This document shows, in pieces, positions 29,088-40,181 of a stretch of 64,000 nucleotides of DNA (position 1 is its first letter; every line of letters begins with the position of its first letter). The position numbers and the translations under genes are program-made. Under the pieces are notes generated by a model, which worked only from the letters and a program-made list of their open reading frames with translations, ran no database searches and had not been told where the DNA came from. The DNA is from an uncultured Spirochaetaceae bacterium. Its GTDB lineage: Bacteria; Spirochaetota; Spirochaetia; Sphaerochaetales; Sphaerochaetaceae. Location: contig CALXLB010000053.1 of assembly GCA_944389085.1 (NCBI GenBank), positions 1 through 64,000 of the forward strand, given 5' to 3'.

Positions 29088-31574
29088 ATGAATTTTCTGA
29101 GAAGCACATTGGATAATGGGTATCTGACAAGATGGCTGCAGAGCGAAGTACGGGCAGAAGCTGTTTCTGTTCCTGCGCATGTCCGTCTTGTGGATGCTGG
29201 TGATAAAGCCATAAATCCAATGCGGGAAATTTATGCTGAAGAAATAAGAAAATCCGGTATTCCTTGCCCAGCGTTTATTGATCTGCAGCCAGGAGGATGC
29301 CTCTCTCTGCTTGGATCTGAACACAGATTATATTACAGAGCACCTTTCGGAGATCCTGTAATTGGAGAGATTGCAGATTATCCGACACCTTCCCGGGTTA
29401 CAGTGGCGGCCGTTACGATTGTAGAAGCTGATGAGGATATATCAGCAAGAGCAGAATGGAATGTCTCAGGTGGGGCATTTCTTTATATCGATGGCAATGT
29501 TGTCCGTTCATTCCTTCCTTATATCAGAAACAAATTTGAAAAAGAAACCTTTGATATAAAGCTGGAGAAGGGGCGTCATGTATTCATTATCATTGCAGAT
29601 GATTATGCAGAACGGGACACAGAATGCCGCGTTTCACTTAGATTCCTGACTTGTACTTCATCGATTTATCAGATCATTCCTCTGGGTGACAGATCGCCTG
29701 AGATACTGGAAAAGCATGAGAAAGCACTGGAAAGTCTGGCTTTTACACGGACATGCTATAAATCCGGCAATGTGTATCTTTATATGGATAATGATTTTGC
29801 TGATTCCATTGATATAGAACTGGAAGGTGCAACAGAAGAAAATGAAGAAGCGGGTGTACTGTGTCGGAGAACTGCTCATTTCAGCCCGTATTCAGATATC
29901 TCAGATTTGGGTCCTTGTGAAAGCTTCCCTTTGGGATTCCTGAGATTCGGGGTAACGGCTTATGCTCAGGATATAAGAATAGAGACAACGAGATGCTTTG
30001 AGAACTTTCCGGTTTCATTTATCACCAGAGCACTTTCGGACGTAAAAGGCAGGAAAAGGCAATGTTTCCAGTTTCTGGCAGAACATGGTGAAATGAATGC
30101 AAACAGAGCAGTTGCCATACTTATGAGTGATGGAGATATACAGGAGGCTGAAGAACTTCTCTGGTATCAGGTGGATTTCATAAACAGACGCTGTGATTGT
30201 TCTGATTTCTATCTTCCATATTTTCCTTATATCATCCGCCACTTTTCAGGAGAACTTTCAGAAGAGCTGCTTTCTGCCATCAAGAAATGCCTTCTTTCGT
30301 TCAGATACTGGATGGATGAGGCTGGTAGTGATGCTATGTGCTTCTGGTCGGAGAACCATAAGCTTATGTTCCATACGTCGCAGCTTCTGGCGGGAGAACT
30401 CTATCCTGATGAGATTTTCACGAACAGCGGCATGACAGGTAAGGAAATGGTAGGTAAGGCAAAAAATCTCCTTGCAGTGTGGTTCGATTGTTTCTTTAAA
30501 ACTGGATTCTCAGAGTGGAACAGCCCTCCATACCTTCCGATTGATTCATTAGGTTTCGCTTCTCTCTATGCTATGGCTGAGGATTCTGAAGTCAGGACAT
30601 GGGCAAGAAGAGGCCTTGATTATATTTTCAGGCTTCTTGCACTGACATCTGTGAATGGTGTTTTCAGTACAACAAGCGGAAGGACATATCTTAAAGAACT
30701 CATGGGAAATCATTCGAACTGCACATCTTTCATGAATTGGATTGCATATGGGCTCGGAAATGAATCGCATGCAGGTAAAGGAGTGGTTTCTCTTGCTCTC
30801 AGTGATTATGAATGCAGTGGGGATAATCTTGAATTTGCAAGACTGGGAAAAGGCAGAGCTGTCTATCTTAAGATGACAAATGGTTCTGTAAATCCTGCGA
30901 ATGTCACTGTATATAAGACATCGGAATATCTGCTGTCTGCTGTTAATGGTTATAAAATATATAAACCTGGAAAACAGGAAGATGTTGTACATGCTGTTGT
31001 CAGTGCCGATGAGCATATATGGATAAACCATCCAGGTGAATTTGCTATTTTTGGCAAAGCCAGACCGTCTTATTGGGCTGGATCCTCTATTCTGCCTCGC
31101 GTTTATCAGTACCGAGGTCTGGTGTCAGTCTGTTTCCAGATACCAGCGGATTGTCCTGTTGATTTCACACATTGCTACTGGCCGTCATTTGAGTTTAAAA
31201 GGACCGATTATCAGGGGAATTGGGCGTTTGCTGAATGCCAGAACGGGGTAAAGATAGGGATATTTGCTTCAAATGGGCTGAGTATAACAACCAAAGGTGG
31301 AAACATGGGAAGAGAACTCATCAGCAGGGGTAATAATACCCATTGGCTTATCAGGATGGCAGGCAGCAGCATTCCTTTTGAGCTTTTCACATCATCTCTT
31401 CTTTCTTCCGACGCAAGAATCTGCTCTTCTGAAATCATATTCAGCGATCCCGGCTACGGGGAAATCAGAATCACAGATTATGGTCTTTCTGTCTGTGGCA
31501 GAAAAGAAACATATGAAGGTTTTTCAGCAGAGGGCTTTACTGAGTTTCTCTCTGATAAAGGAGGTTTTTCATGA
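29088..31574 (+). CDS. Unknown 828-residue cytoplasmic protein, toroid plus beta domains
   Basis: 828 residues, no signal peptide. Residues about 100-190 look like a beta sandwich (GGAFLYIDGN and KGRHVFIIIADDYAERDT). About 310-600 is helical and resembles an (alpha/alpha) toroid, holding FRYWMDEAGSDAMCFWSENHKLMFH. A C-terminal beta-rich part has WINHPGEFAIFG and RPSYWAGSSILPRVYQY. A 798-residue paralogue sits at the end of the second ABC sugar operon and shares FRYWM..G.D.MCFWSENH.L.F, NHPG and RP.YW. The layout recalls polysaccharide lyases and hydrolases of the toroid class, but I know no family with this motif. First gene of the pectin-type operon, so it probably acts on an imported oligosaccharide. 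Confidence 0.7.
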   Translation: MNFLRSTLDNGYLTRWLQSEVRAEAVSVPAHVRLVDAGDKAINPMREIYAEEIRKSGIPCPAFIDLQPGGCLSLLGSEHRLYYRAPFGDPVIGEIADYPTPSRVTVAAVTIVEADEDISARAEWNVSGGAFLYIDGNVVRSFLPYIRNKFEKETFDIKLEKGRHVFIIIADDYAERDTECRVSLRFLTCTSSIYQIIPLGDRSPEILEKHEKALESLAFTRTCYKSGNVYLYMDNDFADSIDIELEGATEENEEAGVLCRRTAHFSPYSDISDLGPCESFPLGFLRFGVTAYAQDIRIETTRCFENFPVSFITRALSDVKGRKRQCFQFLAEHGEMNANRAVAILMSDGDIQEAEELLWYQVDFINRRCDCSDFYLPYFPYIIRHFSGELSEELLSAIKKCLLSFRYWMDEAGSDAMCFWSENHKLMFHTSQLLAGELYPDEIFTNSGMTGKEMVGKAKNLLAVWFDCFFKTGFSEWNSPPYLPIDSLGFASLYAMAEDSEVRTWARRGLDYIFRLLALTSVNGVFSTTSGRTYLKELMGNHSNCTSFMNWIAYGLGNESHAGKGVVSLALSDYECSGDNLEFARLGKGRAVYLKMTNGSVNPANVTVYKTSEYLLSAVNGYKIYKPGKQEDVVHAVVSADEHIWINHPGEFAIFGKARPSYWAGSSILPRVYQYRGLVSVCFQIPADCPVDFTHCYWPSFEFKRTDYQGNWAFAECQNGVKIGIFASNGLSITTKGGNMGRELISRGNNTHWLIRMAGSSIPFELFTSSLLSSDARICSSEIIFSDPGYGEIRITDYGLSVCGRKETYEGFSAEGFTEFLSDKGGFS

Positions 31575-32842
31575 GAAAAGCATTTTCGGTTATTGCAGTA
31601 CTTCTTGTTTCTGTAATGCTCTTCGCATCCGGTGCTGGTGAAGCAGAATCTTCTGATACGTTGCAGGTTATGCTTACCAGCGAACCAGGCGAAGGTGATT
31701 CCTTGTTCACTATGCTGCAGAAATGGGCAGATGAGTCAGGAGTTCAGCTTGATACTCTCATCATCCCCGACGATGATCAGCTGCAGCGCTTCCCTTTGAT
31801 GGCAAAGAACGGGGATCTGCCTGATCTTATTGTCACTACAAGGCTTACCAGATTGTATCCTGATGAATTCGAGGATCTTGGAGATGTTATTGATATCAGC
31901 ATATTTGAACCTCAGGCTCTGACTATCATCAGCGAGGATTACAATACAACTGCAAATTACTGTCTGCCATATGAATTCACTATAACCAATGTTTTCTACA
32001 ACAAGACAGCATTTGAGAAAGCTGGTATCGAACCACCGACAGTGGAGGATCCTTGGACATTGGAAGAGTTCAGGGAGAATGCCCAGATTCTTCAGGAGAA
32101 AGGTGGAGTCAGGTATGGAATTGCTATGGATGGTTCCAGAGCAAGATATGATAATCTTATGTATCTTTATGGTGGTTCCATGGTCGAGAAGGAAGGGGAC
32201 TCCTTTGCTGTTACAGTCAATGGACCTGGTTCTGTCGCAGCGCTCGAGATGTTTGTCGAGTGGAACAACAGCGTAATGCCAAAGGCTGTCTGGGCTGGTG
32301 GCACATCGGATAATCCATCAGATTATTTTACAAATGGTCTTGTGGGAATCTTCTTCTCCGGTTCCTGGAATTACAATCCGTATACGCAGAATATCAAGGA
32401 TTTCGAATGGGGTGTCATCCCATCTCCTGTCGGACCGGATGGAAGCAGATCGGCAATTCTCGGCGGTACTGGATTCGCAGTTCCAAAAGAAGCAGAGAAC
32501 AAGGAGCTCGCATATGATTTCCTGACATGGTTCTATGAAGAAGAGCATTTCCAGGAATTCCTCAATCTCGATAAAGGTCTTTCTTCTCTCAAAGACATAA
32601 TCTATGAGCCTTCTGATGAGAAGATAGCCAGTGATTATGCTGTCATGCAGGCTGAAGCCGCAAACGTACAGGATGCCTTCAATATTGATGAGAGCTCCAT
32701 GTGGAGAAATTACTACGACAATGAGTACAGAGATGCACTCAGGCAGGCGGTATATGGTGATCTGACACCTCAGGAAGCGCTTGATGGATTTGCCAAGAGG
32801 CTGGCAGATAAATCAGGGTGGTCGCTTAAGTATACCGTGTGA
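31571..32842 (+). CDS. ABC sugar-binding protein
   Basis: 423 residues. It is an extracellular solute-binding protein of family 1: an N-terminal signal (MRKAFSVIAVLLVSVMLFASGAGEAES) with no lipobox Cys, then LQVMLTSEPGEGDSLF, IVTTRLTRLYPDEFEDLGDVIDISIF, LPYEFTITNVFYNKTAFEKAGI and AFAVPKEAENKELAYDFLTWF-like closing segment. It would trap oligosaccharides, probably unsaturated galacturonides given the GH105 neighbour, for the permeases that follow. It overlaps the 828-residue gene by four bases and is followed by a hairpin that probably protects or terminates part of the transcript. Confidence 0.92.
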   Translation: MRKAFSVIAVLLVSVMLFASGAGEAESSDTLQVMLTSEPGEGDSLFTMLQKWADESGVQLDTLIIPDDDQLQRFPLMAKNGDLPDLIVTTRLTRLYPDEFEDLGDVIDISIFEPQALTIISEDYNTTANYCLPYEFTITNVFYNKTAFEKAGIEPPTVEDPWTLEEFRENAQILQEKGGVRYGIAMDGSRARYDNLMYLYGGSMVEKEGDSFAVTVNGPGSVAALEMFVEWNNSVMPKAVWAGGTSDNPSDYFTNGLVGIFFSGSWNYNPYTQNIKDFEWGVIPSPVGPDGSRSAILGGTGFAVPKEAENKELAYDFLTWFYEEEHFQEFLNLDKGLSSLKDIIYEPSDEKIASDYAVMQAEAANVQDAFNIDESSMWRNYYDNEYRDALRQAVYGDLTPQEALDGFAKRLADKSGWSLKYTV

Positions 32843-36960: not shown

Positions 36961-37220
36961 ATCAGAGAACGAGATGTATCATAAGATTCTTTTTGCAGGC
37001 ATCTATGCATAATAGAAGAGAAAAATCTATCAGCTCGAATTTAAAAATCATGCTAATTTTTCTATGTGATAAAAATAGGAGAGAGGAATTTAAAAATAAT
37101 TTCCATGTTTTATTCCTGTAAATACATAGAATTGAATTAGACAAATTTACAAAATGTCTAAAAAATGAAACATTGTTCCGAAAAAAATAAAAAAGTCTGA
37201 AAATTTTTCTGAAACCTCTT
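36961..37220. other. AT-rich intergenic region
   Basis: About 260 AT-rich bases between the TPR gene and the small RNA promoter. An 87-codon open frame on the minus strand has neither a ribosome-binding site nor protein-like composition. GAATTTAAAAAT occurs twice (about 37038 and 37088). No gene seen. Confidence 0.5.
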
Positions 37221-37249
37221 TTCACTTTTGTGAGAACTCGTTATATTAT
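37221..37249 (+). promoter_or_regulatory. Promoter of the candidate small RNA
   Basis: TTCACT (37221-37226) and TATTAT (37244-37249) are 17 bases apart and would start transcription near 37255, just before the first hairpin of the RNA. Confidence 0.4.
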
Positions 37250-37254
37250 GGCCA

Positions 37255-37338
37255 GAAAGTGGAAGCAGAACTTCCATTCTAACCTCCTTTTGTTCCCCAT
37301 AACTGGTTTACCTCCTTTTGTCCAGTATGGGGTTTTTT
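37255..37338 (+). ncRNA. Candidate small RNA with two anti-Shine-Dalgarno segments
   Basis: About 84 bases. Hairpin 1 is TGGAAG-CAGAA-CTTCCA. A single-stranded piece follows with ACCTCCTTTTGT (37282-37293). Hairpin 2 pairs CCCCATA-A-CTGG with CCAG-TATGGGG, and its loop again shows ACCTCCTTTTGT (37310-37321); six T follow, making it a good terminator. The repeated 12-mer is the complement of a Shine-Dalgarno sequence and resembles the 3' end of 16S rRNA. Exposed CCUCC or UCCC segments are how several regulatory RNAs (streptococcal csRNAs, listerial LhrC, staphylococcal RNAIII) block ribosome binding. The function here is inference from structure; no family was recognised. Confidence 0.55.
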
Positions 37339-37368
37339 ATTTTATTGAACTGAGAAGAGGCAAACCCC

Positions 37369-37395
37369 TTGACAAGCTACTGGGGGGGGTAGACT
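37369..37395 (+). promoter_or_regulatory. Promoter with G8 tract in the spacer, possible phase switch
   Basis: A perfect TTGACA (37369-37374) is followed by 15 bases and TAGACT (37390-37395). Eight consecutive G (37382-37389) lie in the spacer. With two more G the spacer would be 17. Slippage in such tracts changes promoter strength in other bacteria, including the tpr genes of Treponema pallidum. The gene downstream is a surface lipoprotein. Confidence 0.5.
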
Positions 37396-37430
37396 TAGGT
37401 TGAGTTTCTTGTTGTAAAGGAGGTTTTACA

Positions 37431-38801
37431 ATGAAGAAGATAAGTTTTTTGGTTATCTCAATCTTTCTCGCTATTACTCTTATTTCTTGTTATCCAAGAT
37501 ATACCATAATTCCTCTTCCAGATGTCGATAATCCGATAGATACTGATGAGCCAACGCCGGAACCGGAAGGGCCAACTACATTCAGTCCCAAAACGGTTCA
37601 AGAGCTTAAAAAAGCTATCAGTGATTCAAAAGATGGGGATACCATCGAGGCGGATGTTGTTATTTCCCAAGAAGAATTCGCTGAATTTCCAATAATTCTG
37701 GATAAGAAACTCACTATGAAAGGCGAATATCTGATTGCAGATGATATTAATTCTGAACTCATGCTGATGAATACAGTTTCGAGAAATGGGGCAGGAGCTG
37801 TCGGATTATCATTGTTTGATATTCAAGATGAGGTTTCTCTTGTTGATCTGACTGTCAAAGTAGCTGAATCAACTGTCACAATGGTTGACCAGATTGTCTC
37901 TCTTATTTCATCAGATTCGATCCTCAAAACAGACAATTTCAAAGTTCAGATAATAGCTGATGAAACATCCTCTCCTATAGATAATCCACAGAATACTGTT
38001 ATTGCTATCTCAGTAGGCGAATCTGTTCCGGCAGAGAATATCAATCTTGACGCTGAATCCGATGCCATGATTTACGTAGATGAGAATAATGCAGCAATCG
38101 AGACCATCTTCGAAAATATTGCTGAGATAAATCCAGATACTGAAATAGTAGTTTCAAAACTTCCTGAAACAGAAATCAAACTCGGAACAGAGCTTTCTGA
38201 TGGAATCATCTATTACGACAGAGGCGCAGAATACGGTAGGTATAATTACAATGGGGAAACAAAGACCCTTACTCGTATTGATTATGCCGTTGATGATGGT
38301 TCTGAAGGCTCAACTGCTTGGAGATTCCTTATTGTTGCAAATGAGAATTTAATTGCTCAGTCTGACGAAATTTCATGGGGAGATTTTAATGATTCAGATG
38401 TACCAGGTTGGGATGAGACTTCCTATGAAATAGGCTCTGGATTAAAGAATACTTCCACAATGCTGAACTATTATGGGACAGAAGCAGCATACATCTGGCC
38501 GAAGGTGAAAGAAGTGCAGAATACAACAGGAGAGCAGTGGTTCGTACCATCAGCACTAGAGCTATATGAGCTATACAAGGTTAAGGATGAACTTACGAAT
38601 ATTACCTTCCCGAGTTTTTCTTCCAATAATAGATATTGGACATCTACCAGATGCATGGAACCACTATCTTCTACAGTACTAAACGAGGTTTATGTTTGCG
38701 TGGTTGACTTCCATGACAAAGATTTAACGGAAGAAAATGTCCAGCAGGATGGCATGTCGGCAAATTCGAACTATTTTGTGAGACTAATAAAACGATATTG
38801 A
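37431..38801 (+). CDS. Lipoprotein with DUF1566-like C-terminal domain
   Basis: 456 residues. A lipoprotein signal ends at LISC (Cys20), followed by a Pro/Asp/Glu-rich spacer (VDNPIDTDEPTPEPEGP). A central acidic domain (about 55-260) begins VQELKKAISDSKDGDTIE, like the start of beta-helix surface proteins. The C-terminal part from about 265 has GEQWFVPSALELYEL, NNRYWTSTRC and ends NYFVRLIKRY, the DUF1566/Lcl C-terminal type related to the C-type lectin/formylglycine fold used for ligand binding. It would be displayed on the outer membrane. AAAGGAGG precedes the start. Its promoter carries the G8 tract and its ribosome-binding site can pair with the small RNA just upstream. Confidence 0.75.
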   Translation: MKKISFLVISIFLAITLISCYPRYTIIPLPDVDNPIDTDEPTPEPEGPTTFSPKTVQELKKAISDSKDGDTIEADVVISQEEFAEFPIILDKKLTMKGEYLIADDINSELMLMNTVSRNGAGAVGLSLFDIQDEVSLVDLTVKVAESTVTMVDQIVSLISSDSILKTDNFKVQIIADETSSPIDNPQNTVIAISVGESVPAENINLDAESDAMIYVDENNAAIETIFENIAEINPDTEIVVSKLPETEIKLGTELSDGIIYYDRGAEYGRYNYNGETKTLTRIDYAVDDGSEGSTAWRFLIVANENLIAQSDEISWGDFNDSDVPGWDETSYEIGSGLKNTSTMLNYYGTEAAYIWPKVKEVQNTTGEQWFVPSALELYELYKVKDELTNITFPSFSSNNRYWTSTRCMEPLSSTVLNEVYVCVVDFHDKDLTEENVQQDGMSANSNYFVRLIKRY

Positions 38802-38962: not shown

Positions 38963-39118
38963 TGTTTCCTGATTCAAATTACTATCAAAATGAAAATCAA
39001 CCTTATTGATATATTCCTCTTCGAGTTCTAAGGATTTAGACTTATATTAAACCTTTCTTGTTTCTCCTGAGATTAGCTTGGCCGAAAAACAAAACATATT
39101 TCCCTGTGTCTCTTTTCA

Positions 39119-39205
39119 TGCTATATTATAAACAGGTCGGACACCAAGCCGAACAGGGGCGAGTCCCCGCCGAAGAGCCGGAGGCTGCCTCCGGCAATTT
39201 TCTTT
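39119..39205 (+). ncRNA. Candidate structured RNA upstream of the DUF3800 gene
   Basis: An extended -10 box TGCTATATT (39119-39127) precedes three consecutive hairpins: TCGG/CCGA (39137-39152), GGGG/CCCC with loop CGAGT (39156-39168) and the strong GCCGGAGG-CTG-CCTCCGGC (39177-39195), followed by AATTTTCTTT. The GC content is far above the surroundings. It reads either as an independent RNA of about 70 bases with its own terminator or as a leader that controls the DUF3800 gene, whose ribosome-binding site begins 12 bases later. No known riboswitch or RNA family was recognised. Confidence 0.5.
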
Positions 39206-39219
39206 GCAAGGGGCTTGTC

Positions 39220-39897
39220 TTGTCTGTACTGTCAATCCATATCGATGAAAGCGGTAATCTGAATCTTTCTAACAGACAGAATCCCACATATTGCCTCTCC
39301 ATGGTTTTCCATAATCAGAGTGATGATATCTCAGCGGAACTCCAATTTTTGAATAAGAGACTTTCAGAGATAAACTGTGATGTTCCTTTTATTCATACAT
39401 CACCTCTTATAAGACAAGATAAACCATTTGAAGATCTTCTTATGACAGACAGGTTGCACATCTTCAGGATATTTTCCAGATTTGTGGAACAGCTTCCAAT
39501 TACTTATACATCCTTTTCTGTTATGAAGACTTTCTATCAGGAAGATAAGCAAATAGAGGAAGCTTTCAGACATCAGATAAGGAATTTTATCGAAAATAAT
39601 CTCGAATACTTTCAAAGCTTCGAAAAAATCACAGTGTATTATGACTGTGGACAGTCCATCATAAGTAAGATTCTCAGAGATACGTTTGGAAAGATATTTG
39701 GAAGCAGGATGGATTTCCGTACAGCGTATCAGAAAGATTTCAGGCTTCTGCAGGTTGCTGATTTTATATGTACTCTTGAACAATCAAAGATCAGATGGGA
39801 TGAACATAGACCAACAAAATCTGAAAAGGATTTCTTCCTTACTCGTCAGATGTTCATGAAGAACTTCTATAAGAAAATAAGCAGGAAACATATCTGA
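39220..39897 (+). CDS. DUF3800-domain protein
   Basis: About 225 residues from a TTG at 39220, which has AAGGGG six bases upstream; the frame is open further left but that part covers the structured RNA and is not protein-like. The hallmark IHIDESGNLNL lies at the start, YYDCGQSIISKIL in the middle and LLQVADFICTLEQSK near the end. DUF3800 proteins have an RNase-H-like fold with acidic residues at these three places and are common in accessory and defence-rich regions, but the reaction is unknown. It is a single gene following a candidate structured RNA. Confidence 0.72.
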   Translation: MSVLSIHIDESGNLNLSNRQNPTYCLSMVFHNQSDDISAELQFLNKRLSEINCDVPFIHTSPLIRQDKPFEDLLMTDRLHIFRIFSRFVEQLPITYTSFSVMKTFYQEDKQIEEAFRHQIRNFIENNLEYFQSFEKITVYYDCGQSIISKILRDTFGKIFGSRMDFRTAYQKDFRLLQVADFICTLEQSKIRWDEHRPTKSEKDFFLTRQMFMKNFYKKISRKHI

Positions 39898-39995: not shown

Positions 39996-40181
39996 TTATT
40001 TTGAGAAGACAACAATCATCTTGTATCTGGAGAAGCACAGACAGCATCTTCCGACAACCGGTTCCATGGATTCGAATTTGTATCCATCGGATTCCATTCT
40101 GTTGATTACTTTCTCGACTTCGCTTGCACGGAGTGTACAAGTGAAAATACCGGAGTTCACTTCTTCAACTTTGTAATCCAT
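39996..40181 (-). CDS. DUF4177-like small protein
   Basis: 61 residues. MDYKVEEVNSGIFTCTL, then a helix EVEKVINRMESDGYKFESMEP and a final strand YKMIVVFSK match the beta-alpha-beta outline of DUF4177 proteins, which have no known function. AAGGAGGTAAAAT lies before the ATG; this ribosome-binding site matches the complement of the small RNA repeat over 11 bases. It overlaps the end of the membrane-protein gene by 17 bases, so both belong to one operon. Confidence 0.6.
   Translation of the reverse strand: MDYKVEEVNSGIFTCTLRASEVEKVINRMESDGYKFESMEPVVGRCCLCFSRYKMIVVFSK

Follow-up and report, generated by a model that had tools for sequence, protein, structure and literature searches.

What is encoded by the short segment of the window (the whole stretch of 64,000 nucleotides that was analysed) that carries a promoter-like pair, two potential hairpins and a run of T residues, and that displays the same pyrimidine-rich 12-mer, ACCTCCTTTTGT, twice? 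The segment opens with a sigma70-type promoter (37219–37247 (+); -35 box TTTTCA at 37219–37224 and -10 box TATATT at 37242–37247, 17 nt apart), which can be aligned in relatives of the same genus and is conserved there as TTTACA/TTTTCA-N17-TATATT. It is followed by a predicted small RNA gene of ~85 nt (37254–37338 (+)), delineated by covariance-model and BLAST homologues, the 5' end of which is estimated from the -10 box and the 3' end from the T run. Folding and the genus alignment place in it a 5' hairpin (37258–37278 (+), the AGTGGAAG/CTTCCATT region; arms 37258–37265 and 37271–37278) and a single-stranded linker with the first anti-Shine-Dalgarno (anti-SD) copy of ACCTCCTTTTGT (37282–37293 (+)); then comes an intrinsic terminator hairpin with a covarying stem (37295–37332 (+), arms 37295–37306 and 37322–37332), the loop of which presents the second copy (37310–37321 (+)), and finally the T run TTTTTT (37333–37338 (+)). 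A first-pass annotation of this DNA had described the same succession, i.e. a promoter-like pair, a hairpin, an unpaired 12-mer, a second hairpin with the repeat in its loop and six T, and the coordinates bear it out. The window RNA is predicted to fold with -24.1 kcal/mol, compared with a mean of -15.9 for shuffled sequences (z = -2.85; 1 of 200 shuffles was equally good). In predicted folds, the loop copy of ACCTCCTTTTGT is ~97% unpaired, and the linker copy is unpaired with a fraction of 0.6–0.98 that varies with the 5' end assumed.

Is this arrangement kept by natural selection or is it a product of chance? Of 48 genomes from the genus to which the window belongs, 45 gave a BLAST match to the element, and the three without it are 75–89% complete. 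Across 41 aligned genus sequences, the linker AACCTCCTTTTGTT (37281–37294), which contains the first ACCTCCTTTTGT, is invariant in every one, and the terminator loop GTTT(A)CCTCCTTTT is near-invariant, while the stems around them differ. The 5' hairpin is kept across subgroups although its stem sequence changes: it forms in nearly every genus sequence folded singly, from stems as unlike as GTGGAAG/CTTCCAT, GGAATTAAGGAA/TTCCTGATTCC and GAAATCGAGAGAA/TTCTTCGGTTTC. The terminator stem of the genus shows changes on both sides in 5 of its 10 pairs, with 97.5% of the alignment cells paired.

A covariance model (R1) built from the genus sequences was then used on the genomes of the family, which we take to be the Sphaerochaetaceae of GTDB, and of the class. 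It matched in 122 of 139 family genomes, representing 18 of 22 genera (~121 genomes once G013 is dropped, the match of which, L256, looked spurious by eye and was left out of the count), and the RNA is nearly always present as a single copy per genome. Beyond the family, 42 of 303 sampled genomes of the class matched, across 18 families. A second, broader model added further matches, including more genera of family f24, one 1.1 Mb genome of which gave no match with that model. Two matches outside the class (L371 and L379), found to be devoid of the linker motif and of a promoter, were not counted. Most of the distant sequences share one plan, namely a variable 5' hairpin, a ACCTCCTTTT linker and a terminator hairpin with GGTTTT(n)ACCTCCTTTTCC, and even the remotest members retain ACCTCC(T)TTT both in the linker and in the loop. 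Class-wide, changes on both sides affect 9 of the 10 terminator pairs with 97% of cells paired, a covariation reached by none of 500 shuffles and far above that of slid controls; as this alignment had been fitted to the model, independent folds of single sequences are needed alongside it. A search of related genomes with a covariance model had been put forward by the first-pass annotation as a check, and its outcome is that both CCTCC segments and both stems are kept, the latter by compensatory change. That promoter-like, hairpin-forming and SD-complementary sequences should merely have met here without any function is, because of this conservation throughout genus, family and class, an explanation already refuted; after the comparative searches no point speaks for it and its probability is next to nil. 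From the comparative evidence, the locus is almost certainly the gene for a small RNA.

Does this RNA belong to one of the genes beside it? The segment does end in an intrinsic terminator, 93 nt beyond which a same-strand gene begins, and it could on that account be a terminator of the upstream gene or a leader or attenuator of the adjacent lipoprotein gene. The neighbours of the RNA in the window, on both sides, are however common to no relative, on which ground a leader, attenuator or riboswitch of the lipoprotein gene was rejected. The variable downstream context, the conserved promoter of its own and, across the class, a downstream gene that is often convergent likewise leave such a cis-acting role with only the slightest probability. 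Because the gene beside it in the window is not conserved with it, the RNA is better taken for an independent trans-acting one than for the leader of a neighbour. In most relatives with enough flanking sequence, the RNA lies downstream of a phosphofructokinase (pfk) gene on the same strand (71 loci hold the gene, in 70 of them upstream). A small LysR-type helix-turn-helix gene occurs on the upstream side in 41 loci, and on the downstream side a phosphoglucose isomerase (pgi) gene, usually convergent, is found in 27 loci, followed in 13 by an ArgR gene. To judge from these loci, the RNA gene usually has a glycolytic gene on either side; the window copy would have moved or had its surroundings rearranged.

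Some features of the flanks deserve mention in their own right. The lipoprotein gene of the window has a promoter-like pair, TTGACA/TAGACT (37369–37395), the 15-nt spacing of which holds a run of eight G residues (37382–37389), possibly a phase-variable spacer of that promoter, and the ORF downstream of the lipoprotein gene (39058–39897) has a Pfam match to DUF3800 (PF12686). In several other genomes of the genus, an element with a tyrosine integrase sits directly downstream of the RNA (L408:201–7171, L409:192–6660 and L410:196–10525). Repeats of 20–25 bp (e.g. CGCAGTGGGGTTTTTTATTTT), corresponding to the 3' half of the terminator or to the sequence just after it, recur 6.5–10 kb further on in the three genomes examined, and because of these direct repeats the 3' end of the RNA, with its terminator half, probably serves as an integrase attachment site. 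At the window copy, no such 20–25 bp direct repeat was found. Within the integrated element of L408 (3434–4886), a radical-SAM-type gene stands beside a Cys-rich peptide (CAGCSGTCKTGCSQSCKAGCKAGCKSSC), a pair that looks like one for a ribosomally made, modified peptide.

What drives transcription of the RNA in the other lineages? At the loci outside the family (L219–L255), the motif TGTAAC-N15..18-GTT occurs shortly before the RNA in 28 of 31 cases, against a background of one window in 5,741; among another 21 distant matches, 11 have it too. It occurs in none of 85 family loci, where a sigma70-like pair is usual instead. This box was absent from the models, and it therefore constitutes independent evidence for the RNA gene. 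A -35 element containing AAC and a GTT -10 element resemble the promoters of extracytoplasmic function (ECF) sigma factors. When a regulon was sought with the motif in four genomes, the RNA itself was recovered in three, the other sites falling mostly inside ORFs, and no sigma-factor gene was found beside the motif sites in these four genomes. As the motif leads to no sigma-factor gene, it is by resemblance that the promoter outside the family may be assigned to the ECF type, an assignment to be treated as a lead. As read from these upstream sequences, the predicted promoter type of the RNA has changed between lineages, being sigma70-type in some and TGTAAC-N-GTT in others.

How would such an RNA act? 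The element kept across the class, ACCUCCUUUU, corresponds to what we take, from bacterial 16S tails generally, to be the anti-SD of 16S rRNA with its U-rich extension; no 16S rRNA was found in the assembly of this genome. Two exposed copies, supported by stems that vary, are in keeping with an antisense RNA masking SD sequences. We therefore consider an independent, intrinsically terminated, trans-acting antisense RNA of ~85 nt, in which two hairpins would keep open two copies of this mimic of the 16S 3' tail, one in the linker and one in the terminator loop. The mimic would pair with the SD of mRNAs having long, A-rich, GGAGG-type sites, and pairing would block binding of the 30S subunit with no need for Hfq, mRNAs of transport, substrate-binding and exported proteins being the likely main targets. 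The Pfam model of Hfq had no match in 118 genomes of the class, although the same model matches in Escherichia coli and Bacillus subtilis, so that the RNA would have to act without classical Hfq. Transcription, SD pairing in vivo, repression and the target class are all inferred here. Conservation makes it probable that the RNA acts by SD pairing, and the scheme as a whole, an Hfq-free antisense RNA mimicking the 16S tail to cover strong SDs in trans, is the best explanation, in which we place nearly the same, reasonably good confidence.

Which mRNAs would be covered? The first-pass annotation had pointed to complementarity with the SDs of two genes in the window, and both matches are there: AAAGGAGGTT (10 nt) before 37431 and AAGGAGGTAAA (11 nt) before the ORF starting at 40181 (-), for which the name 'DUF4177-like' is not confirmed, as Pfam assigns it none. 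Yet of the 38 gene starts in the window, five equal or surpass that at 37431 in their pairing with the RNA, and the two targets are thus ordinary strong SDs. The SD AAAGGAGGTT (37417–37426 (+)) makes the lipoprotein-like gene at 37431–38801, which is not conserved beside the RNA, a weak candidate target by complementarity; the same AAAGGAGGTT, complementary over 10 nt and located within the region 31550–31570 (+), makes a candidate, by complementarity and pairing, of the gene for an extracellular solute-binding protein at 31571–32842. Genome-wide, AAAAGGAGGT has 11 sites besides the RNA, and 8 of them form the SD of an ORF of 100 codons or more. Complementarity is longest ahead of three genes, those for a solute-binding protein (GGACAAAAGGAGGTA, 15 nt with the loop), for a secreted nucleoside hydrolase (14 nt, to the linker) and for a secreted esterase (13 nt). 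The better candidates, with 12–16 nt of perfect pairing, are mostly genes for transport and exported proteins, an enrichment that is weak.

Across the 48 genomes of the genus, the 12-mer complement ACAAAAGGAGGT has 20 sites outside the RNA, 12 of which lie 2–13 nt before an ORF start. For a control, an SD was extended towards 16S rRNA (AGAAAGGAGGT): of its 30 sites, 7 precede an ORF, and 3 of those 7 ORFs are transport genes. The genes behind the 12 ACAAAAGGAGGT sites encode transport, substrate-binding or exported proteins in 11 cases (10 of 11 with an orthologue pair counted once), among them four solute-binding proteins, an amino-acid permease, a TRAP permease, a proton pyrophosphatase, an ABC ATPase and two secreted enzymes; several of these names were read from sequence, Pfam having been applied to part of the genes. 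The difference in position between the two sets is suggestive as far as sequence goes, and the difference in gene class, set against a control of only seven, is not decisive. At sampled 12-mer sites, the calculated pairing energy is -22 to -26 kcal/mol, the assumed 16S tail reaching about -13 to -16. Over the 48 genus genomes there is no enrichment of the 12-mer complement, a reversed-pattern control giving more sites, and one extended site is not kept between orthologues of the ABC ATPase, being ACAAAAGGAGGT in L316 and AGAAAGGAGGT in L342. It is therefore conceivable that pairing with the core SD is all there is. The suggestion of the first-pass annotation that the RNA regulates surface proteins accordingly finds weak support: transport and exported proteins account for most of the best-matched genes, but a strong SD may be a general trait of genes of this type. 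That the RNA acts mainly on this class is a tentative idea that we hold slightly short of even.

Perhaps, then, the RNA does not choose among targets at all, but covers any strong SD or titrates initiation, thereby lowering overall translation under some condition. Several ordinary genes of the window do pair as well as the proposed targets, long complements are unenriched genome-wide, and what the class as a whole conserves, ACCUCCUUUU, amounts to no more than the anti-SD core, with an extension that varies between families. The weakly similar 'toxic small RNAs' of Betaproteobacteria (RF02278) are moreover toxic when cloned in E. coli (PMC4603805). By contrast, the rare 12-mer complements concentrate at gene starts when compared with the 16S-extended control, and the TTTTGTT that follows the core is invariant in the genus linker, a conservation that a pure binder of the core SD would not need, so that we judge such a general brake unlikely. 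The two identical pyrimidine segments could instead bind an RNA-binding protein or another RNA, since a duplicated, unpaired and invariant motif amid variable stems is equally what protein-titrating RNAs display. The motif matches the anti-SD in the very register of the 16S tail, however, no partner is known and the conserved neighbours include no gene for an RNA-binding protein, all of which renders this explanation decidedly improbable beside pairing with chosen SDs.

Has an RNA of this kind been seen before? Rfam returned no match at gathering or curated cut-offs, and no such spirochaete RNA was found in the open-access literature, in keeping with the earlier remark that none had been described in this lineage. 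At relaxed thresholds, the LhrC model (RF00616) scored 22.1 bits against a cut-off of 110 and the Betaproteobacteria toxic small RNA model (RF02278) 13.1 bits against a cut-off of 50. The latter RNA is likewise short, its weak match covering the linker and the terminator, and its native function is unknown (PMC4603805). By anatomy and probable target class, the nearest are the alpha-r14/NfeR1 ('cuckoo') sRNAs of Rhizobiales, which share hypervariable stems with identical unpaired anti-SD motifs and, as in the genus of the window, stand alone behind a sigma70 promoter; their repeated motifs act redundantly and their targets are mostly transport mRNAs (PMC7143759). They differ in having three hairpins, each with the motif in its loop, in place of two hairpins and one motif in the linker, and in being alphaproteobacterial with several copies per genome, whereas the present RNA is nearly always single-copy and occurs in spirochaetes with no Pfam Hfq. 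Next come LhrC of Listeria and the streptococcal csRNAs. LhrC likewise has CU-rich motifs that are redundant, placed both in a single-stranded stretch and in the loop of the terminator, but they read CUCCC and loop A adds a third, and loop 1 has none here; LhrC blocks an SD, acts on lapB without Hfq, and is multicopy and controlled by LisRK (PMC4132741). The csRNAs share an unpaired anti-SD stretch between two stem-loops and an intrinsic terminator; they are controlled by CiaR, exist in several copies and bear an anti-start-codon CAU beside the anti-SD in 53 of 61 cases (PMC3091779). In the RNA described here, CAU stands just before CCUCC in 23 of 45 genus loci, 10 of 42 other family loci and 22 of 31 loci outside the family. 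AbcR1/AbcR2 of Sinorhizobium also have two unpaired anti-SD motifs, with ABC-transporter mRNAs enriched among their predicted targets (PMC7143759), but bind Hfq, have three stem-loops and tandem genes, and belong to another lineage and sequence. With its independent promoter and intrinsic terminator, tied to no one neighbour, the RNA has what characterizes trans-acting, SD-blocking sRNAs. Because it lacks a defining feature of LhrC, of alpha-r14 and of RF02278 alike, we class it as a new family within a known kind, one that would work like NfeR1/AbcR, LhrC and csRNA and belong to none of them. The repeated anti-SD design is familiar in alphaproteobacteria and Firmicutes and seems to have arisen here independently.

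What is the significance of such an RNA in this group? In the open-access papers searched, no regulatory small RNA was found that is widely conserved in the spirochaete class. An RNA common to many families, in which the 16S-tail mimic is fixed and the promoter depends on the lineage, offers a testable entry to post-transcriptional control in spirochaetes with no Pfam Hfq, among them cultured Sphaerochaeta and probably Treponema. A bolder and rather doubtful extension is that it is a class-wide spirochaetal stress RNA, governed by a dedicated ECF-type sigma factor and encoded between the phosphofructokinase and phosphoglucose isomerase genes, which would, independently of Hfq, stop the translation of envelope proteins, those that bind substrates included. 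It would then be the spirochaetal counterpart of the sigmaE/SgrS-type RNAs, and the gut genus of the window would have rewired it to the housekeeping sigma factor.

Departures from the usual copy number or plan were also observed. Two genomes of genus g12, G077 (L182/L183) and G080 (L185/L186), also have a diverged second copy of the RNA, in which the terminator stem is different (GGACGCCGA). In family f26 (L372, L373, L374 and L383), each genome has several related genes for the RNA, L383 showing two in tandem; these genes retain the CCTCC motif in the terminator loop and have lost it from the linker. In family f8 (L378 and L381), there are seemingly two hairpins, each with (C/T)ACCTCCTTT in its loop, a motif still nearer to the 16S tail.
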